Assembly: GCF_000304315.1 (NCBI RefSeq)
Contig: NC_018485.1
Location: forward strand, 2,760,501-2,824,500
Origin: Methylocystis sp. SC2
GTDB lineage: Bacteria; Pseudomonadota; Alphaproteobacteria; Rhizobiales; Beijerinckiaceae
Length of the DNA stretch: 64,000 nt
Reading direction: 5' to 3'
Below the pieces are notes generated by a model that did not search any database, was not told the origin of the DNA, and worked only from the letters and a program-made list of their open reading frames with translations. Made by a program: the position numbers and the translations under genes. Each line of letters starts with the position of its first letter. The first letter of the stretch is position 1. Below, in pieces: positions 6,567 to 42,695 of this stretch.

Positions 6567-9432
<2,866 letters not shown>

Positions 9433-9445
<13 letters not shown>

Positions 9446-10086
9446 ATCGAACAGTCCGTCAGGTTTCTCTGCGGCGCGCCGTATTGGGCGCGCAGGACCT
9501 CAGGCGCGGGCGTGGTCGCGTCGCGCGTCCAACTGGTGTCGTAGATCTTGTCTTTTGGCCTAAGGCGCGGGCCAGGATCACGGTGACAGTCAAGGCAAAA
9601 CTGCATCGTCAAGGATTTGGCCTTGTAGGTCAGCGCCATATTGGCCACGTCGCCGTGACAGCTCGAACAGCCGACGCCTTTGGCGATATGAATGCTGTGA
9701 TCGAAGTAGACGAAATCCGGAACGTCGGTCACACGGCGCCAGACCAGCGGCCGGCCGTCCTTCAGACTGTTGCGCACCGGCTCAAGCAATGCGGCGTTGG
9801 TCCAGATCTGCGAATGGCAGGTCATGCAGGTATAAGTGGGCGGCATGCCGGCATTGGCGGAAACTTCGACGGCGTTATGACAATACCGGCAGTCGATCCC
9901 CAATCCGCTGACGTGATGTTGATGGCTGAAGGGGACCGGCTGCGCGGGAGCCCAATTCACGCGTCGCGCAGAATCGCTGTTCGGCCAAAGCCAAACCACA
10001 AGCGAAAACGCCACAAGAGCGAGCGCCAACAGAAGGAGCGCCAGCGAAGCCCACAAATTCGCGGCGGGTCGAAAGACTGCGCCCAT
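9433..10086 (-). CDS. actA: Alternative Complex III pentahaem cytochrome c subunit ActA
   Basis: 217-residue multihaem cytochrome with one N-terminal anchor helix (about residues 8-32) and five haem motifs: CRYCH, CMTCH, CSSCH, CLDCH and CSICH. Five haems match ActA, which passes electrons from ActB to ActE or the oxidase. An in-frame TTG at 10098, four codons upstream, has a GGAG at better spacing (six bases) than the ATG at 10086 and may be the real start. This is the first gene of the ACIII block. A 159 bp gap separates it from the co-directional MFS gene, so the operon promoter is probably there. Confidence 0.92.
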
Positions 10087-10245
10087 GAGTCGCCCCAAGA
10101 ATCGCTCCGCTTCCGCCAGGCGCGCCCTTCGGCGGCGGCTAGACCAAGCCTACAGGTGGTTCAGCACGCGCCTGCGGCAAGCGCCGTGGCTCAAGGGGCG
10201 ATGGCGCTGCGGGAGAGGATCGGACCGGCGCTTAGGGTTTAGGGC

Positions 10246-11539
10246 TCACGGGACGGTCTGAGGTTGGGCGCGCCGCGCGAAGATGTAGCTGGCGATCAGT
10301 CCGAGCGTCGCGAAGAGGGTGACGACCGAGAACAGGTAATTATGCCCCGCCGCCCCGGGCCACTGGTCGAGCAGATAACCCATGAGCGGTCCCATAAAAA
10401 TATCCGGCGCGTAGCCGACCACCGATAGCAATCCAACCGCGCTCCCCGTGTGCTCCATCGGAATTTTGCCATCTTGCATGATCGCGAAATACAGGCCGCG
10501 CAGCGCGAAGACGCCGATGCTGGTAAAGACGATCGTCAAAACAAACGTCCATACCATGCCCGCGCCGATCGCGCCGGAAGCCAGCACGGAGTTCCCGGCT
10601 GCGAGAAGCACGAAACAGCCGACGATCATGCGGGGCGCGCCAAACCGCTCAGCCAAATAGCCGGCGCCAACGGCCGCAGCCGGTCGTATCCAGAGCGATG
10701 CGACGCCGACCCGCGCCGCCTCTACCTCATTCAGGCCGATGACCTGATTCGCGTACAGCGAAAAGTCGTCGATCGCCTTAAAGCCCACGTAGGCGCACAG
10801 GATCACCGCAGCCTGCAGCCAGACCGACCGCATGGCGAACACCTGCGCGATGTCGCTTATCGAGACCGCTCGCGGCGCCGGCGTTCTGCGTTCCGGTAGC
10901 GCCAGCCAGATGAGCAAGGCGGCTCCGCAGGTCATCGCGAACAACAGCAGTATGATCAGTCGCAATGATTCCGTGCGCCGCGCGAGACTGGCCGTCTCGC
11001 TGTCGTTGGGCAGCAGCGCGGCGAATAGAACCACCATGGTCGACGCCATGACGGCCGCCAGCGCGCCTCTGCCGCCTTCGAGCAACCCGAAGGCGCGGCT
11101 TTGGGAATAGTTGAGCCCCCACTCACGCGTGGCGCGAATCAACGGCGCCCAGAACAGCGTGATCGTGGTGATTCCCCAGTACCCATATAAGATCGCCAGT
11201 GCCGACGGGGACGGAATCGCCATCATCACAAGGCCGCCGACGGCGGTGGACGTCAATGCGATAGTCAACATTGTGCGTGCGGGGTATTTGTCGGCGAGCG
11301 GGCCGCCGAACAAATACGCGGCCACTGCTACGACGCCATAAACCGCATAGGCGGCGCCGAGTTGGAGATTAGTCGCGCCGAACACATCGAGGAGCGTCGG
11401 CCGGAATACGCGCGCCAAGACGAAGGGCAGCAGAAAAGCCGATTCCCCGGCGACAATCAGCGCCGCGATCGCCAGTCCCCGCTGTCGCGCCTGGCGCGCG
11501 TCACGCGCCAGCAGTGGCGCCGGCGCGATGATTCGTCAT
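10246..11539 (-). pseudogene. MFS transporter with apparent 5' frameshift
   Basis: From 11418 down to 10246 an intact frame encodes a 390-residue major facilitator protein with about eleven helices and the loop motif GGPLADKYPAR after the second helix. The first expected helix (GLAIAALIVAGESAFLLPFV) is also encoded upstream in the same frame, but that frame has no ATG/GTG/TTG before a stop near 11535. A good start exists at 11539 (ATG with GGAGG three bases upstream, overlapping the stop of the upstream gene in an ATGA), but it reads only 12 codons in the neighbouring frame before a stop. A single extra base between about 11505 and 11535 would explain this: sequencing error or a recent inactivating mutation. 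TTG at 11418 would give a product lacking helix 1. The substrate is unknown. Confidence 0.6.
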
Positions 11540-21781: not shown

Positions 21782-21954
21782 AGTACTAGCTACTTTGGAA
21801 TGAGAATAAATACACGTAATGTATGGTACATATGTCACATCGCGCTTAAAATACTTCTGAAATGACGGTTACATAATTGACGGAAAAAAAATATTCGAGC
21901 TATCTGCAGCATACAAAGCGAGGCGTCGCGCTACACAATAGTAGAGGCGGAAGA
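21782..21954 (+). promoter_or_regulatory. AT-rich regulatory region upstream of the siderophore cluster
   Basis: This spacer is much more AT-rich than its neighbours. It contains two inverted repeats: AAGTA-N5-TACTT at 21782-21796 and ATGTA-N3-TACAT at 21820-21832. A TGAGAATAAAT stretch at 21803-21813 resembles half of a Fur-type 7-1-7 box. It is the natural place for iron-regulated promoter elements driving the receptor and biosynthesis genes. No full consensus box is visible, so the regulator is unassigned. Confidence 0.45.
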
Positions 21955-24387
21955 ATGACCAAGAAACATTCCAGATTTTCCTGCCTGGACATCTCAGTGA
22001 TCGGGAAAAAATCCCTGCTTGTATGTAGTCTCGGCGCGCCGGTCGTGATCGCGCTCGACGTCGCATCGGCCCTGGCGCAGAACGGCTCGCAAACGTTGCC
22101 TCCGGTGACCGTGGACGCCCCGCGCGAAAAGTCGCAAGCCAAGCCGCGGCAACAAACGCAACGCCCCGTCGCATCGAGCGCGCGTGCGAGCAGCGTTCAC
22201 CCGAGCGGCCCGAGACCGCATGTGGCGTCGACGCAGCACAGAGCGGCGTCCGCCGCGCCGCAGGTCGGTCCTTCGCTGCTCTCCGGCGCAAGCGGCGTCG
22301 CGCCGTCGCCGCCAACGGGCGAAATCGGCAATCTTCCGCCGGCCTACGCCGGCGGCGAGGTCGCGCGCGGCGCCCGGCTCGGCATGCTCGGCAATCGCGA
22401 TTTCATGGATACGCCGTTCAACGTGACAAGCTACACGTCGGCGCTGATCGAGAACCAGCAGGCGCGCACGCTGCAGCAGGTCTTGGAGAACGATCCGTCG
22501 GTCCGCATGACCACCTCGGCCGGGCATATTCGCGAGAATTTCAGAATTCGCGGCTTCCCCGTGCTTGGCAGCGAGCTTGCGCTCAATGGCATGTATGGCT
22601 TGGCGCCGGACGGCCATGTGGCGACCGAATTCCTGGAGCGCGTCGAAGTGCTCAAGGGGCCGGGCGCGCTGCTCAACGGCATGGCGCCCTTCGGCGCGGT
22701 CGGCGGCTCGATCAACCTCGTCACCAAACATGCCAGCGACGCGCCGATCACCAGCGTCAGCACGGATTACACGTCGAGTTCTCAGTTCGGCACGCATATT
22801 GACGTCGGGCGGCGCGGCGGCGACCACAATCAGTTCGGCGTTCGCTACAATGGCGTTTACCGCAGCGGCGGCACTGCGCTCGACGAACAGTGGAAAGTGC
22901 GCGGCCTGAATGCGTTGGCGCTCGATTACCGTGAAGAGCGCGTGAGGCTGTCGATCGACGCCTATCACAGCCAGGAAATCTTCAAGAATGGCAGCGCGTT
23001 CTTTGCGAGCTTCAGCGGCATCGGCGCGGCGGCGGCGCCAAGCGCAACCAAGAATCTGTTTATCGGTTCAAACGGCCGGTTTGAGAACGCCGCGGTCATG
23101 GCGCGCGGCGAACTCGACATCGCCGAGAACGTCACGGTTTTCGCGGGCATCGGCTTTTTGGACAGCCGAAACTTCGGCTTCACCAATGGAACCAATGCCC
23201 CCAGCGTGAATCTGCTCGGCAACTTCACCGGACCGCGTATCGTCAATCTGCGCGGCTACACCAATACGCTGTCGACGCAGGGCGGCATTCGCGGCCAGTT
23301 GGACACGGGCCCTCTGCGCCATCAATTCGTGCTGAGCGCCTCGGCGCTAAAATTTAGCCAAAGTTCCGAGTTCGGATTCAGCGGGTCTTACAGATCGAAC
23401 ATTTATCTGCCCGTCGTGCCGCCTCAGGCGCCTCCGCCGCCGGTTGTTCCGAACACCGCGTTCAATCCCAGTCGGCCGTATTTCGTAACCGATCCGAGAA
23501 AGACCGGAGAGAACTATCTGGCGAGCCTCGCCTTCGCCGACACCATTTCGGCCTTCGACGAGCGCATCCAGCTCATCGGCGGGCTGCGCAGCCAGCGCGT
23601 GATGACCAAGACATTCCAGGCGAATACCGGCATAGAGACGAACGCCTATGACAGCCATCGTCTCTCGCCGGCCTTCGCGCTGATCGTCAAGCCATTCGAC
23701 AACCGCCTGTCGCTTTACGCCAACTATATCGAGGGCCTCAGTCAGGGGTTGCGAGTCACCAATCCGCTCGCAACCAATTTCAACGAGTCGTTTCCGCCTT
23801 TCGTCTCCAAGCAGATCGAAACCGGCGCGAAGCTGGATTTGGGCGTTCTCGCGAATACGCTGAGCTTTTACGAGATTACGCAACCCACTCTTTCGACCGT
23901 GACCAGCGGCGGCCTGCTCAGTTACAAGCCCGTCCGGCAGCGCAATCAGGGCATCGAGTGGAACGTCTTCGGCGAGCCGATCCCGGGCGTCCGCGTGCTC
24001 GGGGGCGTCTCTTATATGATCGGCGTCATCACGCAGAGCGCGGACGGAAAGACCACCGGAAAGAACGCCTTCGGCATCCCGCGATGGCAGGCGAACTTCT
24101 ATGGCGAATGGGATATTCCCTATCTGGTCGGGGTGACCGTGGAAGGCCGCGTCATCTATACGAGCGCCCTCTATGTCGACTCGTTGAACTACTACCGAAT
24201 TCCTGAATGGGCGCGCTTCGACGCAGGCGCGCGCTACAACACGAAGATCTACGGCACAGACATGACGCTGCGGGCGAATGTGAACAATCTGTTCAACCAC
24301 AGCTACTGGTCTGGCGCCTTCAACGACGGCTTCGCCACGCTCGATGCGCCACGCACCGTCCTGCTGTCGGCGACGTTCAACTTCTAA
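21955..24387 (+). CDS. TonB-dependent siderophore receptor
   Basis: 810-residue outer-membrane receptor for ferric siderophore uptake. After a signal region (ending near ALAQ) comes a TonB-box-like LPPVTVDAP, then a Pro/Ala/Ser/Arg-rich linker of roughly 80-90 residues. The plug domain has RIRGFPV and VEVLKGPGALLNG, followed by the beta-barrel, ending in aromatic Phe (LSATFNF) as outer-membrane barrels do. No separate STN signalling domain is visible. ATG 21955 has GAGG seven bases upstream; an in-frame TTG at 21877 is possible. It is the first gene of the catecholate cluster, so the ligand is probably the encoded product. Confidence 0.92.
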   Translation: MTKKHSRFSCLDISVIGKKSLLVCSLGAPVVIALDVASALAQNGSQTLPPVTVDAPREKSQAKPRQQTQRPVASSARASSVHPSGPRPHVASTQHRAASAAPQVGPSLLSGASGVAPSPPTGEIGNLPPAYAGGEVARGARLGMLGNRDFMDTPFNVTSYTSALIENQQARTLQQVLENDPSVRMTTSAGHIRENFRIRGFPVLGSELALNGMYGLAPDGHVATEFLERVEVLKGPGALLNGMAPFGAVGGSINLVTKHASDAPITSVSTDYTSSSQFGTHIDVGRRGGDHNQFGVRYNGVYRSGGTALDEQWKVRGLNALALDYREERVRLSIDAYHSQEIFKNGSAFFASFSGIGAAAAPSATKNLFIGSNGRFENAAVMARGELDIAENVTVFAGIGFLDSRNFGFTNGTNAPSVNLLGNFTGPRIVNLRGYTNTLSTQGGIRGQLDTGPLRHQFVLSASALKFSQSSEFGFSGSYRSNIYLPVVPPQAPPPPVVPNTAFNPSRPYFVTDPRKTGENYLASLAFADTISAFDERIQLIGGLRSQRVMTKTFQANTGIETNAYDSHRLSPAFALIVKPFDNRLSLYANYIEGLSQGLRVTNPLATNFNESFPPFVSKQIETGAKLDLGVLANTLSFYEITQPTLSTVTSGGLLSYKPVRQRNQGIEWNVFGEPIPGVRVLGGVSYMIGVITQSADGKTTGKNAFGIPRWQANFYGEWDIPYLVGVTVEGRVIYTSALYVDSLNYYRIPEWARFDAGARYNTKIYGTDMTLRANVNNLFNHSYWSGAFNDGFATLDAPRTVLLSATFNF

Positions 24388-24402
24388 GGATAGGAGCGGA
24401 CG

Positions 24403-24690
24403 ATGAACCTCTCGCCCGCAGCTATTCAATTCGCCGCCTGCGCGGCCATCGCAACGGGCGCCGCCAGCCTCTATCTCGGCGCGAAGAACCAGCGCTGGCT
24501 GTCGCGGCCGCTGCCTGGGTTGTGGAGCGGCGTCGCTGGCGCGGCGCTGCTGCTTCTCGGCGTTTTTCTGTGGAGTCAGACGGTTCAGCTTTCAACCGCC
24601 ATTTTCGGGACGCTCGCTCTGGTCATGCTTCTGTTCATCGCCTTCCCGTGCCTGGGCGCGCTGCGGACCTTCATCAGGAACGCGCCATGA
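24403..24690 (+). CDS. small three-helix membrane protein (DUF3325-like)
   Basis: 95-residue inner-membrane protein with about three helices (AIQFAACAAIATGAASLYLG; GVAGAALLLLGVFLW; IFGTLALVMLLFIAF). Proteins of this size and topology (DUF3325 type) commonly sit between TonB receptors and PepSY membrane proteins in iron loci. The exact role is unknown; an accessory part in ferric-siderophore reduction or uptake is inferred. The stop overlaps the next gene in an ATGA. GGAG sits close before the start. Confidence 0.7.
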   Translation: MNLSPAAIQFAACAAIATGAASLYLGAKNQRWLSRPLPGLWSGVAGAALLLLGVFLWSQTVQLSTAIFGTLALVMLLFIAFPCLGALRTFIRNAP

Positions 24691-24971
24691 GTCAGATCCG
24701 ACGCGATTGGGTGAGCAAGACCTCGGCCGGCGCCATTCTGGGCCTCAGCCTCGCGATCGCGCTTGCGGGACTCTTTGCGTGGCTCAGTCCCGGCGGACTG
24801 ACGACTCCAAATAAATTCCAGCTCGTGATGTGGCTGATCGCGCCGATCTGGCTGACGACGCTGAGTCTCTGTTTCTTCTTTTCGAGCGGCATACGCGCCT
24901 GGCTTTGGCTGGGCGGCGCGAATTTACTGGCGTACGCCGGCCTATTCGCCTGCCGCCTTCTCCTTCGCTAA
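24687..24971 (+). CDS. small membrane protein (DUF3649-like)
   Basis: 94-residue protein with about three hydrophobic helices (GAILGLSLAIALAGLFAWL; LVMWLIAPIWLTTLSLCFFF; GGANLLAYAGLFACRLLL). The pattern resembles small iron-uptake membrane proteins that travel with PepSY proteins. It begins inside the stop of the previous gene (ATGA) and ends 15 bp before the PepSY gene, so the three are one translational group. The function is inferred from context only. Confidence 0.68.
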   Translation: MSQIRRDWVSKTSAGAILGLSLAIALAGLFAWLSPGGLTTPNKFQLVMWLIAPIWLTTLSLCFFFSSGIRAWLWLGGANLLAYAGLFACRLLLR

Positions 24972-24986
24972 TCGGGACAACGCACG

Positions 24987-26588
24987 ATGCGCGCCGACGT
25001 TGTTCGACTCTATAAGGTTGTCCATACGTGGACAGGCATCACCGCCGGGATGTTTCTGTTCATCGCCTTTTACGCCGGCTCCATCACGGTGTTCGCCGAG
25101 CCGCTCGCGCGCTGGGTTTCAACCCCCGCTCCAGTCCGCCTCACCGCGCTTGCCCGATCGGATGAATTGATCGCGCGCACGCTTGCCGCTCGGCCCGACG
25201 CCGCCAAGGAATTCACGCTCCATTTGGGCGAAACCGAAGATCTTTGGGCGCGGCTCACATGGCGAAAAGGCAAGGACGACAGGACGCCGTGGTCGGCCGA
25301 ACTCTCTCCCGAAGGCGACTTGCGCCTGGCGCAATCATATCGCTCGAGCGTTGTCGACTTCGTCGATAATATTCACCGAACCGCGGGCATTCCAGGCGCT
25401 AATGACATCGGCGAGACCGTCATGGGCGTCGTGAGCGCCGTTTACGCGGTCGCGCTTGTGTCGGGCTTGATCATCGTTCTGCCTTCGCTCGTCAAGGATC
25501 TATTCGCCCTGCGAATAGGCCCCAATCTCAAGCGCATGTGGCTCGACGCGCATAATGTCGTGGGCGTCGTCAGCCTGCCGTTCCACATCGTCATCGCGCT
25601 GAGCGCGGTTGTTTTCTGCCTGCACGACCAGCTGTACGACGCGCTCGACTATGTCGTCTATGACGGCCGTCTGAAGTCGGTCATGGCCGCGAGCAACCCC
25701 TTCAACTCTATCAAAAAGGACGAACGGCCCGCGCCGATGCTCCCTGTCAACACGCTTCTCGAGCGGGTGAAGGCGGCATCGCCGAGTTTCGTCCCCGCCG
25801 AGATGCGTTACCGAAACGCTGGGCTTCGGGGCGCCTCGGTTCAGGTTTGGGGTTATGACGCCCGCTATATGACGAGAGGAAAGGGGTTCGCGGTCGTCAG
25901 TCCGGTCACCGGCGAGATCGCCAACACGGACTATCTTCCCGGCCGAGAGGGAACTTGGACGGGCGTCGTGGCGACGTTTTTCGCGCTGCATTTCGCCACC
26001 TTCGGCGGCGATGTCGTGCGCGTCTGCTATTTTCTTCTCGGCATTGCGGGCGCCTTCCTTTTCTATTCCGGCAATTTGCTTTGGATTGAATCTCGTCGGC
26101 GAACTGAACGGCGAAACGGCGGGCCTGTCATTCAGAAGACATCGACGCGGCTGATGTCCGCCGCCACGGTCGGCGTTTGTCTCGGCGCCATCTGCGCGAT
26201 CTCCATCACCATCGTGGCGGCGAAATGGTTGAATGGCCGTGTCGCGAACATCGATGTGTGGCACAATGGCGTTTATTACGCCGTGTTCCTGGCGAGCGTC
26301 CTTTGGTCGTTCCTCAGGGGAGCGGCCGCGGCCAGCGTCGAGCTTCTCTGGCTTGCCGCGATAACCGCCGCTGCAATTCCTTTAACCTCGCTGCTCAGCT
26401 GGGCGTCGCCTGCGCTCGGCATGCAAGGTTCGGCGAGCATGGCCGCGCTCGGCGTTGATCTGGTCGCGCTTTCCGCCGCCTTGTCCTTCGTCTGGATGGC
26501 GCGCTCAGCGGCGCATCGCGTGGAATATGGGCCTGCCGACAGCGTCTGGGCCGCATCCCGCCGGCGACTGCAGGAGGCGGCGCGATGA
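24987..26588 (+). CDS. PepSY-associated transmembrane protein, putative ferric-siderophore reductase
   Basis: 533-residue PepSY_TM protein with about seven or eight helices. The N-terminal helix (HTWTGITAGMFLFIAFYAGS) contains a conserved His, a periplasmic domain follows, and further His residues lie at helix ends (NIHRTAG, DAHNVVGVV, PFHIVIAL, ALHFATFGG). Relatives such as FpvG act in the inner membrane, reducing iron from siderophores in the periplasm, probably via haem. Placement after the receptor and two small membrane genes matches that type of module. The stop overlaps fes in an ATGA. Confidence 0.82.
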   Translation: MRADVVRLYKVVHTWTGITAGMFLFIAFYAGSITVFAEPLARWVSTPAPVRLTALARSDELIARTLAARPDAAKEFTLHLGETEDLWARLTWRKGKDDRTPWSAELSPEGDLRLAQSYRSSVVDFVDNIHRTAGIPGANDIGETVMGVVSAVYAVALVSGLIIVLPSLVKDLFALRIGPNLKRMWLDAHNVVGVVSLPFHIVIALSAVVFCLHDQLYDALDYVVYDGRLKSVMAASNPFNSIKKDERPAPMLPVNTLLERVKAASPSFVPAEMRYRNAGLRGASVQVWGYDARYMTRGKGFAVVSPVTGEIANTDYLPGREGTWTGVVATFFALHFATFGGDVVRVCYFLLGIAGAFLFYSGNLLWIESRRRTERRNGGPVIQKTSTRLMSAATVGVCLGAICAISITIVAAKWLNGRVANIDVWHNGVYYAVFLASVLWSFLRGAAAASVELLWLAAITAAAIPLTSLLSWASPALGMQGSASMAALGVDLVALSAALSFVWMARSAAHRVEYGPADSVWAASRRRLQEAAR

Positions 26589-27949
26589 CGACGTCTTGCG
26601 AGCAATTGTTGAAAGGCCGCTTCGGCCATGACGTGGGTTCCGATCGCTGGTGGCGTCGGGTCGCCATCGAAGGCTGTCCAATTGTCCAGGCGATAGGCGG
26701 GGACCGGGCGCGCGTCTCGTTCTTATGGCGTGACCCTGAAGGCGATGCGACGACCTCAAGGACTCGATGTGTCTATATCGATATCTGCTCAGTCACTGAT
26801 CATCATAGCAATGAACACGCCTCTTTGCAGCGGATCGTCGGAACGGACGTCTGGCATTGGTCATTCGAGGTAGAGGCTGAATGGCGCGGAAGCTATTGCT
26901 TCATTCCTCTCGATGACCACTGTCTCAATGGCGCCCGCGGCGCTGACGGCGACTTGTCGCCAAGTGCGTGGTGGCGCGCAGCGCTGAAGTTCGCTCAGCC
27001 CGATTCGTTGAACCCCAACCTTTGCCATGTCGGCCCGCGCGGACAGCCGGTGTCCGCCGCGCATCTTCCCCAGGCGCCAATGCAAACGGCATGGCGAGAC
27101 GTCGATCGCAACAGCCGCCCCGCGGCCGATCAGAGCCGCCTCCATCGAATGGAATGGAACAGCGCTCGGCTGCGCAACAGCCGCCGTGTTTGGGTTTATC
27201 GCACCGGCGCGACGCCTGAAGAAAGCAAGCTTCCTCTCGTCGTGCTCCTGGACGGCCAATATTGGGCCGAAGCCATGCCGGTCTTCTCAGCCCTGGACCA
27301 TGCCACGCGCGCCGATTCGCTTCCGCCCAGCGTCTATGTGCTCGTCGATTCGCTCAGTGCAGACACGCGTCGTCGCGAGCTCACATGTGACGAAGCCTTT
27401 CTGGAGGCGCTTCAGCAGGAGCTTTTGCCAATAGTGGCGGGCCTCGCGCCGTGCGGCCGCGATCCGAACAAGACCGTCATCGCTGGACAGAGCTTTGGCG
27501 GACTCGCCGCGCTTTTCGCCGGTCTTCGCGCGCCAGAATGCTTCGGTCGCGTGCTCAGCCAATCTGGCTCGTTTTGGTGGCCGGGAGCTTATGCGCGGGA
27601 GGAGCTGCGGCCGCACGTTCCTGATACTCGCGGTCATGCGCGAGACGTCGTCGCCGATTTGATCGAGAGGAGCAGGAGTGGCGCTTCCCGTCTTCGCGTC
27701 TTTCTAGAGGCTGGAAGCTTCGAGAAAATCATTCGCGTCGCCAACGACCGCGTTCATCGGACTCTCGTCGATGCAGGGCACGACGCCCACTATCGCGTCT
27801 ATTCGGGCGGGCACGATCCGCTCTGCTGGCGTGGCGGATTGCTTGACGGCCTGTCCCTTCTGCTCGCCGATCGTCGTGCGGCGCCGGCTGGCGCTACGGC
27901 GTCTCGCGCGCAGGCCTCAAGATTAGCAATTACAGACGCGACGGAGTGA
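26585..27949 (+). CDS. fes: enterochelin esterase-like protein (Fes)
   Basis: 454-residue alpha/beta-hydrolase with an N-terminal Fes-type domain (about 30-165, including VSFLWRDPEGD) and a C-terminal esterase-D-like domain. The nucleophile is Ser303 in GQSFGG. A catalytic His is H410 in SGGHDPLCW. The acid is likely Glu in FLEAGSFE. Fes hydrolyses the ester bonds of ferric tri-catecholate lactones to free iron. No signal peptide is seen, so a cytoplasmic enzyme is expected. Its presence supports an ester-linked (Ser-containing) product of the downstream NRPS. Confidence 0.9.
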   Translation: MTTSCEQLLKGRFGHDVGSDRWWRRVAIEGCPIVQAIGGDRARVSFLWRDPEGDATTSRTRCVYIDICSVTDHHSNEHASLQRIVGTDVWHWSFEVEAEWRGSYCFIPLDDHCLNGARGADGDLSPSAWWRAALKFAQPDSLNPNLCHVGPRGQPVSAAHLPQAPMQTAWRDVDRNSRPAADQSRLHRMEWNSARLRNSRRVWVYRTGATPEESKLPLVVLLDGQYWAEAMPVFSALDHATRADSLPPSVYVLVDSLSADTRRRELTCDEAFLEALQQELLPIVAGLAPCGRDPNKTVIAGQSFGGLAALFAGLRAPECFGRVLSQSGSFWWPGAYAREELRPHVPDTRGHARDVVADLIERSRSGASRLRVFLEAGSFEKIIRVANDRVHRTLVDAGHDAHYRVYSGGHDPLCWRGGLLDGLSLLLADRRAAPAGATASRAQASRLAITDATE

Positions 27950-27953
27950 ATGT

Positions 27954-28178
27954 GTGAATGACGCGCAGCCAAACCCATTCGACGACGAAAACCTTACGTT
28001 TCTCGTTCTGGTCAATTCCCAGGGCCAACACAGTCTCTGGCCGACATTCGCCCCGCAGCCTGCAGGCTGGCGGCGGCTCTTCGGTCCGAGCGATCGGAAC
28101 GACTGCGTAAAATTCGTCGATGAGCATTGGACCGACATGCGCCCGCAATCTCTTCGTGACGCTTCCCGTCGGCGCTAA
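27954..28178 (+). CDS. MbtH-like NRPS accessory protein
   Basis: 74-residue MbtH-family protein that binds NRPS adenylation domains and supports their folding and activity. Signature parts are NPFDDE near the N terminus, SLWP, PAGWRRLFG and HWTDMRPQSLR, with the conserved Trp residues. The GTG start lies five bases after the fes stop. It precedes the NRPS gene, its likely partner. Confidence 0.92.
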   Translation: MNDAQPNPFDDENLTFLVLVNSQGQHSLWPTFAPQPAGWRRLFGPSDRNDCVKFVDEHWTDMRPQSLRDASRRR

Positions 28179-28221
28179 CCGAATGACTTCGTAGGCCGCT
28201 TTTCTTTCGAGGGAACGACAA

Positions 28222-35421
<7,200 letters not shown>

Positions 35422-35424
35422 GGC

Positions 35425-36843
35425 ATGGACACTCAGCGCTCCCCAAAAGCGTCGCAAGAGACGCCCAACGAAGGCCATGCCGTGTCGCCGGATTCTTCTC
35501 GTGCGCCGGCTCACGCCAGCGCCGAGAACAAACCCTCAAAGAGCAAACCGTCCCTCCTGTTGGACCTTAGCCTGCTGCGCGACAACGCAGCATTTCGCAC
35601 CGTCGTCATCGCTCGAACGCTGTCGGTGTTTTCGCTGGGCATGCTGACAGTGGCGGTCCCGGTTCAAATCCAGGGATTGACCGGTTCGCCTATGCAAGTC
35701 GGCATAGCCATGGCGCTGGGCGGCGGCGGCGCCTTCGCCGGGCTGTTGGCGGGCGGGGTGTTCGCGGACCGGTGGGATAGGCGCAAGCTCATCCTCTTTG
35801 CGCGATCCGTCTGCGGCCTTGGCTTCGCGGCGCTCGCCATCAATGGCTTTAGCTCGTCGCCGTCAGTGCTGGCGATCTATGCGTTGGCGTTGTGGGACGG
35901 ATTTTTCAGCGCGCTGGGCGTCACGGCGCTGCTCGCCGCAACGCCTTTTCTCGTCGGCCGCGAAAATCTGGGCGCCGCCGGCCAGTTCAACATGCTGACG
36001 GTTCGCATGGGCGGAATTCTCTCTCCGGCGCTTGGGGGGATGGTGATTGCGTCTTTCGGCGTCGGCTGGAATTACCTCGCAGCCGCGATCGGCGCGCTGC
36101 TGACGGTCGCTCAGCTCATGCGGCTTCCGCCGATGCCTCCCGCCAAACGCGAACCGCAGCACCCGTTGCGCGCGCTCGGGGCGGGCATAGGCTATCTTTT
36201 CGTTAACAGGCTTGTCGGCGCCGTCGTCGCGGTGGGCGCGCTTGTCAGCCTGGGCGGCGGCGTTCGCATTCTGTTGCCGGCGCTTGCCGAGGACATATAC
36301 CGCGTCGGGCCGTCGGCGGTGGGCATGATGTATGCCGCTGCGCCGCTGGGCGCGACGGTGGCCGCCTTGACGGGCGGTTGGCTCGGCGGCTTTGCTCGTT
36401 CCGGAGCGCTGCTGCTCGCGAGCGGCGCGGCGGCTTTCGTCGCGCTGGGGTCGCTCGGATTTGTCAGCGATCCTGCATTCGCTTTTGTGGCTCTCGCGGG
36501 CTTTGGCTATTTGAGCTCGATCGCCTCGCTTCTGCAGTTCACTCTCGTCCAACGCCACACGCCGGAGCATTTGTTGGGCCGGGTCAATGGTCTATGGGCC
36601 GCCCAGGCGGTCACCGGCGACGCGTTTGGCGCGCTCGCGCTTGGCGGCCTGACTCGCGTTTTTCCGCTGACGTCCACCATTCTCATTTTCAGCCTTGTCG
36701 CGCTTCTTTCGAGCGCGGCGATGGCGATCGGATTTCGCTCGCTTCGTTTCGCCTCGTTAGAGAAAAGCGAGGATTCGCCTTCGACCGCCGACGACAAGAG
36801 CGAACGGCCGCAGCCTCAACTCTTGAAGCGCGAGAAGGCTTGA
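35425..36843 (+). CDS. entS: MFS siderophore exporter (EntS-like)
   Basis: 472-residue major facilitator with a long polar N-terminal extension (about 45 residues) before the first helix. The landmark loop is GGVFADRWDRRKLIL after helix 2. EntS-type proteins carry newly made catecholate siderophore across the inner membrane. It starts 3 bp after the NRPS stop and precedes entC, so export is encoded within the biosynthetic operon. The Lys/Ser/Asp-rich C-terminal tail has no motif. The substrate is inferred from context. Confidence 0.88.
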   Translation: MDTQRSPKASQETPNEGHAVSPDSSRAPAHASAENKPSKSKPSLLLDLSLLRDNAAFRTVVIARTLSVFSLGMLTVAVPVQIQGLTGSPMQVGIAMALGGGGAFAGLLAGGVFADRWDRRKLILFARSVCGLGFAALAINGFSSSPSVLAIYALALWDGFFSALGVTALLAATPFLVGRENLGAAGQFNMLTVRMGGILSPALGGMVIASFGVGWNYLAAAIGALLTVAQLMRLPPMPPAKREPQHPLRALGAGIGYLFVNRLVGAVVAVGALVSLGGGVRILLPALAEDIYRVGPSAVGMMYAAAPLGATVAALTGGWLGGFARSGALLLASGAAAFVALGSLGFVSDPAFAFVALAGFGYLSSIASLLQFTLVQRHTPEHLLGRVNGLWAAQAVTGDAFGALALGGLTRVFPLTSTILIFSLVALLSSAAMAIGFRSLRFASLEKSEDSPSTADDKSERPQPQLLKREKA

Positions 36844-36903
36844 TGCGCAGGCCGCGCATGTAACGTCTTGATGAAGAAATTCGACAGCAAGAGAGGTGCG
36901 ACG

Positions 36904-38094
36904 ATGAATGCGGTTAGTCTTCCTCCACCAATTCCAAGCGTTGAAGCGAATCCCACCTTCTTATTCACCTCGCCGCACCGTAGCATCAAAGCGTTCGGCG
37001 TCGCCGAGAGCATTTCCCTTTCGGCGTGCGGCGCGGCGCATTCGGATAGTTTCCTGCAGACGGCCGTGCAGGGGGCGATTAATCGGGCGCGGCAGGCCGG
37101 ACAGGCGAATCCCATCGTTGCGGGCGCCATTCCTTTCGACGTTCGGCAACCCTGCTCACTGTTCGTGCCAATGAGCTATACGGCTTTCGCGAGGGAGTCG
37201 CTGATGGTTGAAGCGCGACGCTCGGAGCGAGCGCCCACGGTGCTCGGCATGCGCAGCCTCCCCGACAAGGACGCATTCAAAGACGCCGTCACGCGCGCGA
37301 TCACAAGCTTTCGCGCCGGGAAAATGTCGAAAGCGGTTCTATCCCGCATTCTCGAGATCGAACTCGCGCAACCGGTCGACGTTGCAGCGATCTTGAACGC
37401 CTTGGTGACGCAAAATCCCAGCGGCTATCATTTCAAGGCGACTTTGGGCGATGGCGCGATATTGCTTGGCGCAAGTCCAGAGCTCCTGATCCGAAAGGAC
37501 GGCGCCGCCATTCGCTCTAATCCCTTGGCCGGTTCGGCCAAACGCAGATCGGACCCGGACGAGGATCAGCTGGCGAGCCGCACGCTGCTGCAGTCGAACA
37601 AGGACAATTTCGAACACAGGCTCGTCGTGGATGAGATCCAGGAAGCGCTGGAGCCCGTATGCAAAGCTCTAACGACGCCCACTGAGCCAGCGCTCATGAA
37701 CACGTCGACGATGTGGCATCTCTCGACATTGATCACCGGCGAACTCGCGAACCACCACACGTCGGCGCTTCAACTTGCCTGTCGGCTGCATCCGACGCCT
37801 GCGGTCTGCGGCTATCCAACCGCCGAGTCGCGGTCGCTGATCAGCGCTCTGGAGCCATTCGACCGCGGGGTCTTCAGCGGCGCCGTCGGATGGTGCGATT
37901 CAGCGGGCGATGGCGAATGGGCGGTGGCGATAAGGTGCGGAACGGTTCACGACAAAGCGATTCGACTCTTTGCCGGCGCCGGCATCGTCGAAGCTTCCGA
38001 TCCGGAATCGGAATGGGCGGAAACTGAAGCCAAGCTCGGCACGATGCTGCGCGCCTTCGGAATAGAAACCGGGGAGCGCCCGGCATGCCGATAG
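36904..38094 (+). CDS. entC: isochorismate synthase (EntC/DhbC)
   Basis: 396-residue chorismate-utilising enzyme converting chorismate to isochorismate, the first step of 2,3-DHB synthesis. Family features: [44 protein letters not shown], a catalytic-type HRLVVDEIQ segment, [12 protein letters not shown], and FSGAVGWCD with the terminal Mg-site [19 protein letters not shown] 36904 has GAGAGG about seven bases upstream; ATG 36871 and TTG 36868 in frame are less likely. Its stop overlaps entE by 10 bp. Confidence 0.93.
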
Positions 38095-39707
38095 AGTTCA
38101 CGCCCTGGCCCGAAGCCTTTGCCCGCAGATATCGCGACAAAGGCTATTGGCGCGGCGAGCCGCTGACGGAAATTTTGCGCTACGCATGCCGGCGTCGTCC
38201 GGACGGCGTGGCGCTGATTTGCGGCGATCGCTCGTTTACTTACGCGGAGCTCGACGCCAAGTCGTCGCGACTGGCGTCGAGCCTCGCCCGGCGCGGAATC
38301 GCGCAAGGCGACACGGCGCTGGTCCAACTCCCCAACATCGCCGAGTTTTACATCGTCTTTTTTGCGCTGCTCAAAATGGGAGCGGCGCCTGTCAACGCGC
38401 TGTTCAGCCACGACAGGCTGGAGATCGCCGCCTATGCGCAGCAGCTCCAGCCCAAGCTTCTGATCGCGTCCGCCGAACATCATCTCTTCGCGGATGACGT
38501 CTATGTCACAGGCTTGCGGAGCATCGCGCCCACATTGAGCGTCGTCGCCATCCATGGACGAACTGAATACGCTGAAAATCTTCAGTCGCTGTGGGAATGT
38601 GACTTAGACGGCGCGGCGGACGAACCGCGTCCATCTGCGGCCGATCAGGTGGCGTTTTTCCAATTGTCGGGCGGCAGCACCGGCGTTCCCAAGCTCATTC
38701 CGCGCACCCATGACGATTACTACTACAGCGTGCGGCGAAGCGCGGAAATCTGCCGCCTCACATCCGAGAGCCGCTATCTGTGCGCGCTTCCAGCGCCCCA
38801 TAATTTTCCACTGAGTTCGCCCGGCGCGCTCGGCGTCTTTCACGCCGGCGGAACGGTGGTGATGGCGCGAAATCCGAGCGCGGATCTCTGCTTCGATCTC
38901 ATACGCCGTCACGAGGCGAACTTCACGGCCATCGTGCCGACGATTGCTTCGTTATGGCTTGACGCCGCCGCCAACGACTCTCTCGAAGCGCCAAATCTCA
39001 CAGTGATGCAGGTCGGCGGCGCGCGACTGAGCGAGTCGGTCGCCCGCCGAATTGTCGCGACCTTCGGCTGCCGGCTGCAGCAGGTTTTCGGCATGGCGGA
39101 AGGCCTGGTGAACTACACGGGTCTTGACGATGATCCCGAGCGCATTTTGACGACTCAAGGGCGGCCGATGAGTCCCGATGATGAGCTGAAAATCGTCGAT
39201 GCAGATGGCGAAGAGGTCGCCGCGGGCGACGTCGGAGAGCTGCTGACTCGCGGTCCCTACACGGTCCGGGGATATTATCGCTGCCCAGAACATAACGCCC
39301 GCGCATTCGATGAAGACGGATTCTATCACACAGGCGATCTCGTCGAAATGACGGCGGACGGATATGTGCGAGTCGTGGGTCGCATAAAGGATCAGATCAA
39401 CCGCGGCGGCGAGAAGATTCCCGCCGAAGAGATCGAAAATCTGCTGCTGCAACACGGGGCGGTCGTGCACGCGGCGCTCATTTCCATGCCCGACTCTCTG
39501 ATGGGAGAGAAAAGTTGCGCTTACATTGTCGCCAGCGACGCCGCGCTAAGGCCGATCGCCTTGCGAAAGCATCTGCGCAGCCAGGGAATTGCGGAATTCA
39601 AGCTCCCCGATCGTTTTGAATTCGTCGATCAGATGCCGCTTACGGCCTTCGGTAAAGTCGACAAGCAAATGCTGCGCGACGACATCCAGGCAAAGCTCAA
39701 CGTCTAA
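38085..39707 (+). CDS. entE: 2,3-dihydroxybenzoate-AMP ligase (EntE/DhbE)
   Basis: 540-residue stand-alone adenylating enzyme that activates 2,3-DHB and loads it on the aryl carrier domain of EntB. Motifs: phosphate loop [26 protein letters not shown] (the Asn replaces the amino-acid-binding Asp, as in aryl-acid A domains), [31 protein letters not shown], and the terminal catalytic Lys in TAFGKVDK. The ATG overlaps the entC end; the next gene is entB. Confidence 0.95.
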
Positions 39708-39725
39708 AGCAAACAGGAATTGACC

Positions 39726-40613
39726 ATGGCCATACAATCCCTTGCCTCCTACGCAATGCCGGGCCCGGACTCCTTCCGAATCAACAAAGTCAATTGGAGT
39801 TTTGCGCCCGAGCGCGCGGCGCTGCTGATCCACGACATGCAAGACTATTTCGTCGGCTTCTACGGCGAGGAAAGTCCGCTCGTCGATCAGCTCATCTCGA
39901 ATATTGGAAGGCTGCGCGCCTTTTTCAGGGACCGCGGCGCCCCGGTGATCTATACGGCGCAGCCCGTTGAACAGAGCGACGAAGATCGCGGCTTGCTGAA
40001 TGACATGTGGGGATCTGGTCTGAACGCCCAACCGCACCGACGCAACATTGTTCAGCCTCTATTGCCGGACGCAGGCGAGACAGTGCTGACGAAGTGGCGT
40101 TACAGCGCGTTCAAGCGCTCGCGATTGGCCGAGATGATGAAGGAGATGGGCAGAGATCAACTGGCGATCTGCGGCGTCTACGGCCACATCGGTTGTCTGA
40201 CGACGGCGCTCGACGCGTTCATGCATGACATCAAGCCTTTCATGATCGCCGACGCCATCGGCGATTTTTCGCTCGAAGATCATCTCATGACTTTGAACTA
40301 TGTCGCGGGACGCTGCGGCATGGTGGTCGGCGTCGACGACGTGCTCGCCGCGCGAAACGCGCATTCTGCTCCGCTGACCAGAGAAGAAATCAAGAAACAG
40401 CTCTTGTCGGCGCTCGATGTCCTGGAATCAGAGTTCGACCCTGACGAGAACCTTATCGATTACGGCCTCGACTCGGTGCGAGTCATGATGCTGGTCACGG
40501 AATGGCGCAAACTCGGCATAGATGTGGGTTTTGACGAGCTGGCGAAAAAGCCGACCTTGAACGGCTGGTGGGACATCATCGATCGGCGGCTCGCCGCGGT
40601 GGTCTCCGCGTGA
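39726..40613 (+). CDS. entB: isochorismatase with aryl carrier protein domain (EntB)
   Basis: 295-residue two-domain protein. The N-terminal isochorismatase (about 1-210) has LLIHDMQDYFVGFY with the catalytic Asp, the conserved KWRYSAFKRS, and GVYGHIGCLTTALDAF. It hydrolyses isochorismate to 2,3-dihydro-2,3-DHB. The C-terminal aryl carrier domain has Ser250 in YGLDSVR for 4'-phosphopantetheine. EntE loads DHB here for transfer to C1 of the NRPS. ATG 39726 has AGGA seven bases upstream. Confidence 0.95.
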   Translation: MAIQSLASYAMPGPDSFRINKVNWSFAPERAALLIHDMQDYFVGFYGEESPLVDQLISNIGRLRAFFRDRGAPVIYTAQPVEQSDEDRGLLNDMWGSGLNAQPHRRNIVQPLLPDAGETVLTKWRYSAFKRSRLAEMMKEMGRDQLAICGVYGHIGCLTTALDAFMHDIKPFMIADAIGDFSLEDHLMTLNYVAGRCGMVVGVDDVLAARNAHSAPLTREEIKKQLLSALDVLESEFDPDENLIDYGLDSVRVMMLVTEWRKLGIDVGFDELAKKPTLNGWWDIIDRRLAAVVSA

Positions 40614-40630
40614 TATCTCGGCGGTTGCGA

Positions 40631-41377
40631 ATGGATTTCTCAGGAAAGCGGATCTGGGTCACGGGCGCCGGCCAGGGAATCGGCTATGCGACGGCCGCCC
40701 AATTCGCGGCGCTCGGCGGCGACGTCGTCGGGCTGGACAAGACGTTCGCGGCCTCGAGCTATCCTTTCGCGACCGTGCGCCTCGATGTCACCGAGCGCGA
40801 TCAGGTACAAGAGACCTGTCGAGTCTTGCTGAAAGAACGTCCGAGACTGGATGTGCTGGTCAGCGCCGCGGGCGTGCTGCGCATAGGTTCGACGGAAGAG
40901 CTGAGCTTTGACGATTGGTCCGCGTGTATGGACGTCAACGCGTCCGGCCCATTCCACCTGCTTCAGCAGACCATTCCGCAGTTCAAACGGCAGCGCTCGG
41001 GCGCGATCGTCAGCGTCGGCTCCAACGCCGCGCATACGCCGCGCGTGCTGATGAGCGCCTATTGCGCCTCGAAGGCGGCGCTGACCAGCCTGACGCACTG
41101 CGTGGGCTTGGAGCTCGCGCCTTATGGCGTGAGGTGCAATCTCGTCTCCCCCGGCTCCACGGACACCGCCATGCAGCGGTCCATGTGGCGTTCGGCGGAC
41201 GCAGAGAAGCAAGTGATCGCCGGAGATCTTGGGTCCTTCAAATTGGGAATTCCGCTGGGAAAAATCGCAACCCCAGCGGAGATCGCAAGCGCCGTCGTGT
41301 TTCTTGCGTCGGATCTCGCCAGCCACATTACGCTTCAGGATCTTGTCGTGGATGGCGGCGCGACGCTTGCAGCTTAA
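40631..41377 (+). CDS. entA: 2,3-dihydro-2,3-dihydroxybenzoate dehydrogenase (EntA)
   Basis: 248-residue short-chain dehydrogenase completing 2,3-DHB. NAD site TGAGQGIGYATA; catalytic Ser in SVGSNAAHTPR and YxxxK in SAYCASKAA; NLVSPGSTDTAM after it. The small insertion near SMWRSADAEKQVIAGD is typical of EntA-like SDRs. An in-frame GTG at 40610, overlapping the entB stop, could be the start; ATG 40631 fits the family N terminus better (MDFSGKRIWVTG). It is the last gene of the cluster. Confidence 0.93.
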   Translation: MDFSGKRIWVTGAGQGIGYATAAQFAALGGDVVGLDKTFAASSYPFATVRLDVTERDQVQETCRVLLKERPRLDVLVSAAGVLRIGSTEELSFDDWSACMDVNASGPFHLLQQTIPQFKRQRSGAIVSVGSNAAHTPRVLMSAYCASKAALTSLTHCVGLELAPYGVRCNLVSPGSTDTAMQRSMWRSADAEKQVIAGDLGSFKLGIPLGKIATPAEIASAVVFLASDLASHITLQDLVVDGGATLAA

Positions 41378-41585: not shown

Positions 41586-42695
41586 ATGATTAAAATCAAC
41601 TTCTTGCTGTCCATTATCGTAACCTGCTTCGCCATCGCTCTGTCCACGCCCGCATGCGCGGAAACCGCCTCCCCTCCGGCAAAAAAAATGCAGGTTGTGG
41701 TGTTGGAAAGTCCTCCGTTCGTAATGAAGACTGACCAGGGATTTACTGGATTTGCGATCGACCTGTGGGAGGAGAGCGCCAAACGCATGGGCTTGGATTA
41801 CGAATACCGGGAAGCATCAACCCTGCAAGAGCTTCTCGATTCGATAACCATGGGAAAATCCGACGTTGCGGTCACCGAATTGACCATAAACGCCGAGCGG
41901 ATGGAGCGAATGGATTTTTCCCAGCCCTGGTTCGATGCGGGCTTGCAGATAATGATTCATCAAGCGCCCCCGACCGGTTTTTGGAGTTTCTTCCAGCAGC
42001 TTGAGGAGAATGGCCATCTTAAAGTGTATCTTTGGATGGGGCTCGGCGTGATCGTCGCCTCTTTTCTCCTTACGGCGCTGGATAGGCGCCTCGACCCAGA
42101 GTTTCCAACGGAGTGGAAACAGGGCTTCTCCGAGAGTTTTTATCACGTCCTCTCAGTTCTGACTTCGGGGAAAACAAATCACAAGCTGCTGTTCGGAAGT
42201 TACGGGACAATGATCGCGGCTGTGTGGCTCGTCATGGGCGCGGGCGTTGTAGCTTACATAACGTCCTCGATCACCAGCGTCATGACTGTAAACTCTCTTG
42301 AGCGGCGCATATGGGTCGCTGACAAAGACAGAATCGACGATTTGACGGATCTCAAAGGCAAGATCGTCGGCACGCTGAGCGGGAGCGTCGCGAGCATGTA
42401 TGTCGCGAAGGCGGGCCTGTCCGGCAGGGGGTTCAGCACCCTTGGCAATCTCGTCAAGGCGCTGGCGGAAAATCGCGTGGATGCGATCGTCGGCGACCAG
42501 CCTTCCCTCGTTTATCTCTTACATCAGCGCCCCGATTTGCCAGTGATTCCCGTGGGCAACGTCATAAGACACGAGAAGTATGGGTTCGCCCTGAAGTCCG
42601 GCAGCCCAATCCGTCTGAAGCTCTCGAAACAGGTGATGCTCGCCTGGGAGACCGGCCTGATCGACCGTTTACGAAAAAAGTATTTTGGCGGCTGA
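41586..42695 (+). CDS. prokaryotic ionotropic glutamate receptor-like channel protein
   Basis: 369 residues. Signal peptide about 1-25 (cleavage near ACAE). First ligand-binding half 34-125 with TELTINAERMERMDFSQPW, Arg105 being the likely carboxylate ligand. Helix 146-166, re-entrant pore region about 184-200 and helix 207-233 (VWLVMGAGVVAYITSSITSVMTV). Second ligand-binding half 236-365, with Asp304 in IVGDQPS placed to bind an amino group. A periplasmic-binding domain split by a P-loop channel is the GluR0/iGluR plan. The pore lacks the K+ filter T-V-G-Y-G and reads TSGKTN (193-198). Ligand and ion are unknown. It follows entA by 208 bp; co-regulation is unproven. Confidence 0.8.
   Translation: MIKINFLLSIIVTCFAIALSTPACAETASPPAKKMQVVVLESPPFVMKTDQGFTGFAIDLWEESAKRMGLDYEYREASTLQELLDSITMGKSDVAVTELTINAERMERMDFSQPWFDAGLQIMIHQAPPTGFWSFFQQLEENGHLKVYLWMGLGVIVASFLLTALDRRLDPEFPTEWKQGFSESFYHVLSVLTSGKTNHKLLFGSYGTMIAAVWLVMGAGVVAYITSSITSVMTVNSLERRIWVADKDRIDDLTDLKGKIVGTLSGSVASMYVAKAGLSGRGFSTLGNLVKALAENRVDAIVGDQPSLVYLLHQRPDLPVIPVGNVIRHEKYGFALKSGSPIRLKLSKQVMLAWETGLIDRLRKKYFGG

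Follow-up and report, generated by a model that had tools for sequence, protein, structure and literature searches.

A serine-like first adenylation domain in the probable methylocystabactin operon of Methylocystis sp. SC2

The chromosome of Methylocystis sp. SC2 carries an operon for a catecholate siderophore that is built around a dimodular nonribosomal peptide synthetase (NRPS), and the question raised by this locus is which amino acid, X, the NRPS inserts between 2,3-dihydroxybenzoate (DHB) and serine. The window analyzed here comprises 64,000 nucleotides (contig NC_018485.1, positions 2,760,501 to 2,824,500; all coordinates below refer to the window). An initial annotation had listed entCEBA, an NRPS with the order condensation (C), adenylation (A), thiolation (T), C-A-T and thioesterase (TE), an MbtH-like protein, an EntS-like exporter, and Fes, all of which were recovered in Pfam and NCBIfam searches. 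It had also proposed that the product is a new DHB-X-Ser ester, possibly with a basic X. We favor a different reading, to which we assign a probability of about 0.77: the operon would be the methylocystabactin cluster and follow a (DHB-X-Ser)3 logic with L-configured X, and its first A domain (A1), which is serine-like, would most likely derive from the second A domain (A2) of the same protein.

A probable cluster for methylocystabactin

The domains of the NRPS, all on the plus strand, are as follows.

28252..29625, +, C1, starter-type and predicted to accept DHB; motif HHLMVDG; clusters with the C1 domains of EntF, FreF, and CbsF-type NRPSs
29626..31185, +, A1, code DVGNFIVVEK; serine-like with an altered pocket according to code extraction, identities, and five trees
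31246..31425, +, T1, motif LGGDS; 60% identical to FreF-type T1 versus 39% to its own T2
31507..32841, +, C2, motif HHLIGDG; family that elsewhere follows D residues, here placed beside NRPSs without an epimerization (E) domain
32887..34368, +, A2, code DVWHFSLVDK (code extraction), serine
34447..34638, +, T2, domain match and motif LGGHS
34714..35352, +, TE, PF00975 and motif GYSLGG

The core motifs of A1, T1, C1, and C2 are intact, and both A-domain codes were re-extracted exactly as first read. In the proposed pathway, 2,3-DHB would be made by EntC, EntB, and EntA and loaded by EntE onto the carrier domain of EntB. C1 would couple DHB to X, which would be activated by A1, C2 would couple DHB-X to L-Ser, and the TE would oligomerize three DHB-X-Ser units via serine esters to a cyclic or linear product. 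EntS would then export this product, the receptor would re-import it, and Fes together with a PepSY protein would free the iron.

A triscatecholate of alphaproteobacterial methanotrophs, methylocystabactin, was reportedly described by Robes et al. in PNAS in 2025. The introduction of a later paper from 2026 states that "many methane-oxidizing alphaproteobacteria" make this new triscatecholate (PMC13251462). As far as a comparison by description goes, the DHB triscatecholate and the methanotroph hosts match the cluster of strain SC2. Judged from gene content and hosts, the operon is most likely the biosynthetic cluster of methylocystabactin, because the NRPS is the only C-domain protein on the chromosome, is accompanied by DHB genes and a TE, and is found in Methylocystis, Methylosinus, and Methylocapsa. 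The product, initially considered a new member of its group, thus is probably known already under the name methylocystabactin, and the product of the cluster is most likely not the novelty of this locus. The operon of a sequenced strain would, in turn, probably be linked to a reported siderophore.

The profile searches covered the chromosome contig of 3,773,444 bases; the two plasmids of the strain, with 229,614 and 143,536 bp (PMC3794950), lay outside them. The condensation profile PF00668, which also matches E domains, gave two matches on this contig, and both are C domains of the operon NRPS. Accordingly, no E domain is present on the contig; the initial annotation had likewise seen none in the NRPS. 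Profile searches also found no IucA/IucC genes, and two genes of the phosphopantetheinyl transferase family (PF01648) were detected.

The range of hosts was determined by a search of 5.8 billion proteins, which yielded 7989 scored candidates and 1634 matches at E ≤1e-100, the best 120 of which were examined. Among these are 14 full-length NRPSs with 82-92% identity (P0014-P0027), the five with an organism name being from Methylocystis or Methylocystaceae, and six with 65-66% identity (P0029-P0034), five of them named as Methylosinus or Methylocapsa aurea; the next tier, at about 50% identity, is from Yersinia. Exactly this A1 code is present in all 21 proteins that are closely related but not identical to the window NRPS (P0014-P0034), and the ten that have organism names all are Methylocystis, Methylocystaceae, Methylosinus, or Methylocapsa aurea. 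One incomplete protein (P0035) agrees with the code at nine positions. The code does not vary among these 21 proteins, although their overall identity to the window NRPS drops to 65%, and this constancy points to one conserved substrate. We also analyzed 80 of 174 genomic stretches that encode relatives. Eleven loci (L003-L013) contain the code (eight from Methylocystis and one each from Methylocystaceae, Alphaproteobacteria, and Methylosinus), and in the remaining 69 the matched domain is of the DVWHFSL type. Ten of the eleven (L003-L012) share the gene order of the window from the receptor through entB as far as the loci extend. Within the genus, 13 of 39 genomes (that of strain SC2 included) encode the NRPS, each with the same code, and a draw of 149 genomes from the family gave five matches, of which three have the code, one (G078) comprises the second part of the NRPS only, and one (G103) is an unrelated NRPS.

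Two observations speak against this assignment. First, the other 26 genomes of the genus lack an NRPS match, some of these assemblies being incomplete. Second, among the iron-acquisition and siderophore genes compared with strain OB3b, the SC2 genome paper credits strain SC2 with only two genes and strain Rockwell with only one (PMC3794950), and it thus lends no support to siderophore production by strain SC2. The mismatch between two genes and a whole operon may be an effect of the annotation scheme. In the available portion of PMC12971057, Methylocystis and Methylosinus are not mentioned.

The locus resembles the enterobactin system in its DHB genes, exporter, esterase, Ser-activating A domain, and TE type. 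However, EntF is a single module, whereas the NRPS of the window has an extra C-A-T module, and its score against the EntF equivalog (2235.2) is below the cut-off of 2400. If A1 were silent or bypassed, the product could be enterobactin or DHB-Ser oligomers, which would agree with the exact EntF serine code of A2 and the serine-like A1. We consider this very improbable, because the core motifs of both A1 and its neighbors are kept and the altered code has stayed the same in relatives separated by deep splits, as would be expected under selection for one particular substrate. Bacillibactin, which calls for a Gly-activating A1 and a Thr-activating A2, was rejected on the basis of the Ser code of A2 and an A1 without Trp331, the residue that marks Gly-activating domains (PMC12283262).

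Origin of A1

The initial annotation had approached a basic X through A1 itself, a route that the affiliation of the domain does not support. Five methanotroph-type proteins were compared with five FreF-type proteins, FreF being the NRPS for frederiksenibactin. Between residues 469 and 988, module 1 shares 63% identity with its own module 2 and 61% with FreF-type module 2, versus 34% with the Lys-type module 1 of the FreF group. In the T1 region the respective values are 39, 46, and 60%. The identities change near residues 449-488 and 1008-1029, which correspond to the C-A and A-T linkers. The likeness of A1 to serine domains is firm at the sequence level, and it extends to phylogeny: in all five free tree searches A1 was joined with its own A2. 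Support for this grouping in the Shimodaira-Hasegawa-like approximate likelihood ratio test (SH-aLRT) was 100 in a 62-row tree and 98 in a 64-row tree, from which the pocket columns and three neighbors per side had been removed. Ultrafast bootstrap (UFBoot) and SH-aLRT values were 100/99 in trees of 32 and 37 rows and 95/97 in a tree of 38 rows. All trees are chosen subsets. In the 64-row set, name groups were removed and six proteins added; in the 32-row set, long branches and near-duplicates were dropped, so that it has no near outgroup; the 37-row set lacks all basic A1 domains and has seven additional outgroup Ser rows; and the 38-row set consists of the 32-row set plus six outgroup Ser rows.

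We therefore had to consider how A1 became serine-like. The best reading is that A1 most likely is a copy of the A2 of the same protein, although this is unproved. According to this model, the block from about residue 450 to 1028 would have been copied from A2, and Trp239, His278, Ser301, Leu322, and Asp331 would have become Gly, Asn, Ile, Val, and Glu, respectively. In its full form, namely that the whole A1 from the C-A to the A-T linker was replaced by a copy of the protein's own Ser domain and five pocket residues were retuned afterwards, we regard the chances of the proposal as evenly balanced. The approximately unbiased (AU) tests weigh against it to some degree, as none of the three (32-, 37-, and 38-row sets) rejected a deeper placement of A1. 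A position basal to the Ser domains of the family received p 0.30 (37-row set), a position beside the basic A1 rows received p 0.60 with a log likelihood (lnL) higher by 1.83 (32-row set), and a grouping of A1 and the basic A1 domains against every Ser row received p 0.14 with an lnL lower by 9.8 (38-row set). The results with p 0.30 and p 0.14 are also compatible with an A1 that stems from a Ser-type A domain other than its own A2 or that split off ahead of the diversification of the Ser domains, and in BLAST comparisons A1 is about equally close to its own A2 and to Yersinia A2 (61-62%). Such an origin nevertheless appears unlikely, because A1 and A2 of these NRPSs fall together in every free tree search.

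If A1 indeed is a retuned copy of A2, the NRPS would be a natural record, within a single protein, of an A-domain swap followed by the gain of a new specificity. Its natural swap boundaries in the C-A and A-T linkers could be useful to those who exchange A domains. Among the literature matches listed, we found no account of A-domain recombination or duplication in methanotrophs; the methylocystabactin report was outside this search. The serine-like A1 with its code hence is the part of the locus not found in print, and that report may treat it.

A possibly parallel case was observed outside the methanotrophs. Two proteins of 2803-2805 amino acids (aa), P0044 from Pantoea sp. MBD-2R and P0039, have the code DVWHFSLVDK in both A domains, and their A1 clusters with their own A2 (SH-aLRT 99, 64-row tree). 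This could represent a parallel replacement of A1 by A2 in which the pocket remained unchanged, possibly leading to a DHB-Ser-Ser product.

Identity and configuration of X

The A1 code matches neither a Gly nor a Ser code. Compared with the Ser code, five of its ten positions are changed (W239G, H278N, S301I, L322V, and D331E). With these five changes in the pocket of a serine-like domain, X probably is neither Ser nor Gly and probably has a larger side chain. The retuned pocket within a serine-like domain explains the failure of specificity prediction for A1. The string DVGNFIVVEK was not found in the literature searched, a search that did not extend to the original methylocystabactin report. 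In the available portion of PMC12283262, VVEK, IVEK, VEK, Glu331, and Gly239 do not occur, and Asn278 occurs once in a different class.

Whether X is basic (Orn, Lys, or Arg) is a matter of about even odds. As a more specific form of this view, the product could belong to the trichrysobactin group and have Lys, Arg, or Orn as X, the specificity being either inherited or acquired by convergence in a serine-like pocket; we rate this slightly short of an even bet. The argument in its favor comes from the remainder of the protein. The NRPS as a whole, and its C1, T1, and C2 domains in particular, belong to the FreF/CbsF family, the DHB-X-Ser relatives in PMC8480324 carry Lys, Arg, or Orn, and a branching of A1 beside basic rows is compatible with the AU tests (p 0.60 and p 0.14). 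Moreover, Gly239 is present in DVGEIGSIDK, a code predicted for Orn (PMC3992020), and in DIGDLGIIDK, which belongs to an Arg-derived residue (PMC12283262). The A1 domain itself tells against it, being far closer to its own module 2 than to FreF-type A1 and joining Ser domains in five trees. The comparison of A1 pockets suggested in the initial annotation also was unfavorable: FreF (DSEDMGFIDK), Vibrio anguillarum VabF (DAEDLGFVDK), Yersinia ruckeri (DADDAGLVDK), and Dickeya (DSEDMGYIDK) have acids at both 239 and 278, and the A1 domains of Undibacterium, Azospirillum, and Notoacmeibacter retain D278 despite L239, but the operon A1 has G239 and N278. Its sole acid among the variable code positions is Glu331, which had been read as fitting a possibly basic residue. 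However, codes that are of the Ser type in all other respects, such as DVWHFSLVEK, can have Glu331 as well, as confirmed from the raw letters in four domains, and the residue therefore is weak evidence for a basic substrate. Caution thus is advised against reading Glu331 alone in this way. If X is basic after all, the recognition of basic residues would have evolved twice, the second instance being a Ser-type pocket in which no variable code position other than Glu331 is acidic.

A code survey with A1 residues 640-800 as query (best 120 of 5343 matches; codes read from 539 A domains in 215 proteins) yielded no code with an assigned substrate among the matches listed. G239 was seen there only in the methanotroph code, its incomplete form, and DLGNIVMVYK; this rarity is weak evidence, because the fast alignment misreads some positions, for example giving W at 239 of basic A1 domains where the raw letters have E. 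Pairwise code extraction likewise left some basic A1 domains with gapped or shifted positions, and for these the alignments behind the module identities and the 64-row tree, together with the raw letters, were used instead. Another code in the survey, DVWDFILVSK, recurs in at least 17 A domains of 16 proteins (P0133 among them), and the 15 named ones all are from Nocardia or Rhodococcus. Once X is known from the structure of methylocystabactin, DVGNFIVVEK could be added to prediction tables.

Comparison with characterized systems supports the DHB-X-Ser logic and the early assignment of the NRPS as a whole to the kin of trichrysobactin and frederiksenibactin. Of the traits of the group with DHB, a cationic residue, and Ser, the operon has entCEBA and a dimodular, TE-ended NRPS with Ser at A2, but its A1 is unlike Lys-, Arg-, or Orn-type domains and has no acidic residue at either 239 or 278, and the AU tests are indecisive. 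The frederiksenibactin locus of Yersinia frederiksenii ATCC 33641 (L015) is similar in that FreF has the order C-A-T-C-A-T-TE without E and Ser at A2, that DHB genes, Fes, and MbtH adjoin the NRPS, and that C2 falls in the same supported group. It differs in the acidic code and the divergent sequence of its A1; its receptor aligns with that of the window at 27% over 192 residues only, and no PepSY match at E ≤1e-8 was found in this locus. TnbF of Teredinibacter turnerae, the turnerbactin NRPS, is dimodular, lacks E, and has the A2 code DVWHFSLVDK (PMC3795760). As here, its A1 code was unmatched at publication, and L-Orn then was found in the product; unlike here, that code is DSDDGGLVDK and its nearest relatives are CbsF and VabF A1 (PMC3795760). 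Trichrysobactin and trivanchrobactin (CbsF and VabF) share the DHB-X-Ser logic but contain D-Lys and D-Arg, with an E domain in CbsF (PMC8480324), and their type of A1 has acidic codes, as in Dickeya undicola and V. anguillarum.

X most likely has the L configuration, because the C1/T1/C2/A2 scaffold belongs to the frederiksenibactin lineage, whose NRPSs lack E domains. Trees and identities place C1, T1, and C2 with FreF-type NRPSs, and C2 clusters with the C2 domains of E-less NRPSs, namely FreF and those of Y. massiliensis, Y. ruckeri, S. ficaria, and Brenneria (SH-aLRT 98). A C2 of the type that follows E domains could also accept or produce a D residue, and such a role would be in line with a wider C2 clade that includes the CbsF-type NRPSs and VabF and with the T1 motif LGGDS, common to the window NRPS, FreF, and VabF. 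We nonetheless consider a D-configured X improbable. The E domain between modules that characterizes the D-X subgroup is absent from the operon NRPS and from the entire contig, and the nearest C2 domains are from E-less NRPSs including FreF, the product of which, frederiksenibactin, contains L-Lys (PMC8480324). Furthermore, a preference for a D residue had been predicted for the C2 of TnbF as well, but the residue found in turnerbactin is L-Orn (PMC3795760).

Operon layout, upstream region, and related loci

Twelve plus-strand genes at 21955..41377 form one operon, with intergenic gaps of ≤60 bp and three overlapping pairs. The order is TonB receptor, two small membrane proteins, PepSY protein, Fes, MbtH, NRPS, EntS, entC, entE, entB, and entA; the first four of these were not part of the initial annotation.

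21794..21812, +, conserved block TTTGGAATGAGAATAAATA upstream of the operon, candidate promoter or operator
21955..24387, +, TonB-dependent siderophore receptor, TIGR01783 305.6 bits, PF00593 and PF07715; start ATG 21955
24403..24690, +, open reading frame (ORF) for a small membrane protein, 95 aa, same position in L003-L013, no family match
24687..24971, +, ORF for a small membrane protein, 94 aa, same position in L003-L013, no family match
24987..26588, +, PepSY-TM protein (PF03929), putative ferric-siderophore reductase
26585..27949, +, Fes-type enterochelin esterase, NF007758 502 bits (cut-off 222)
27954..28178, +, MbtH-like protein, PF03621 83.7 bits, 5.8e-24
28222..35421, +, NRPS C-A-T-C-A-T-TE, 2399 aa, domain matches and motifs
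35425..36843, +, EntS-like exporter of the major facilitator superfamily, NF007792 517 bits (cut-off 324)
36904..38094, +, entC, isochorismate synthase, TIGR00543 308.9 bits (cut-off 224.75); likely start ATG 36904
38085..39707, +, entE, 2,3-DHB-AMP ligase, motif HNFPLSSPG; both 2,3-DHB ligase equivalogs above cut-off (NF008192 861.6 and TIGR02275 834.3 bits)
39726..40613, +, entB, isochorismatase with aryl carrier domain, PF00857 and PF00550, motif DYGLDSVR kept; likely start ATG 39726
40631..41377, +, entA, 2,3-dihydro-2,3-DHB dehydrogenase, two equivalogs above cut-off, among them NF006074 with 397 bits (cut-off 312); likely start ATG 40631

The upstream block CTTTGGAATGAGAATAAAT occurs once within the window. 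Nine of ten upstream rows from the Methylocystis group (the window included) are identical over its 19 bases and the tenth has one mismatch; the block was not found upstream in Methylosinus L013 or Yersinia L015. Further parts of the surrounding upstream stretch are conserved too, and the block is a candidate regulatory site only.

Models of the FhuA/FoxA type matched the receptor with 76 and 59 bits, both far short of their cut-offs, and those of the FepA type with about 20 bits, a leaning that contrasts with the expected catecholate ligand. In four genomes of the genus (G171, G173, G174, and G175) a receptor like that of the window is present without an NRPS match, with 87-89% identity in the first three and in pieces of 75 and 96% in G175. 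Fragmented assembly and loss of the producer genes are indistinguishable as causes. A related cluster, L118 (G078:C2:80000-98000, 7643-10715), keeps the receptor, PepSY, exporter, and entCEBA genes, and its NRPS consists of a fragment from the start of C1 and of A2-T-TE; about 1480 residues between them are missing and the frames differ. A Fes match (E ≤1e-5) is present in L003-L012 but was not found in L118 or in L013 from Methylosinus Sm6, where iron release may proceed without a Fes esterase. Downstream of the operon, 208 bp past entA, the gene at 41586-42695 codes for a protein resembling solute-binding proteins and ligand-gated ion channels (PF00497 and PF10613, with PF00060 under the cut-off).

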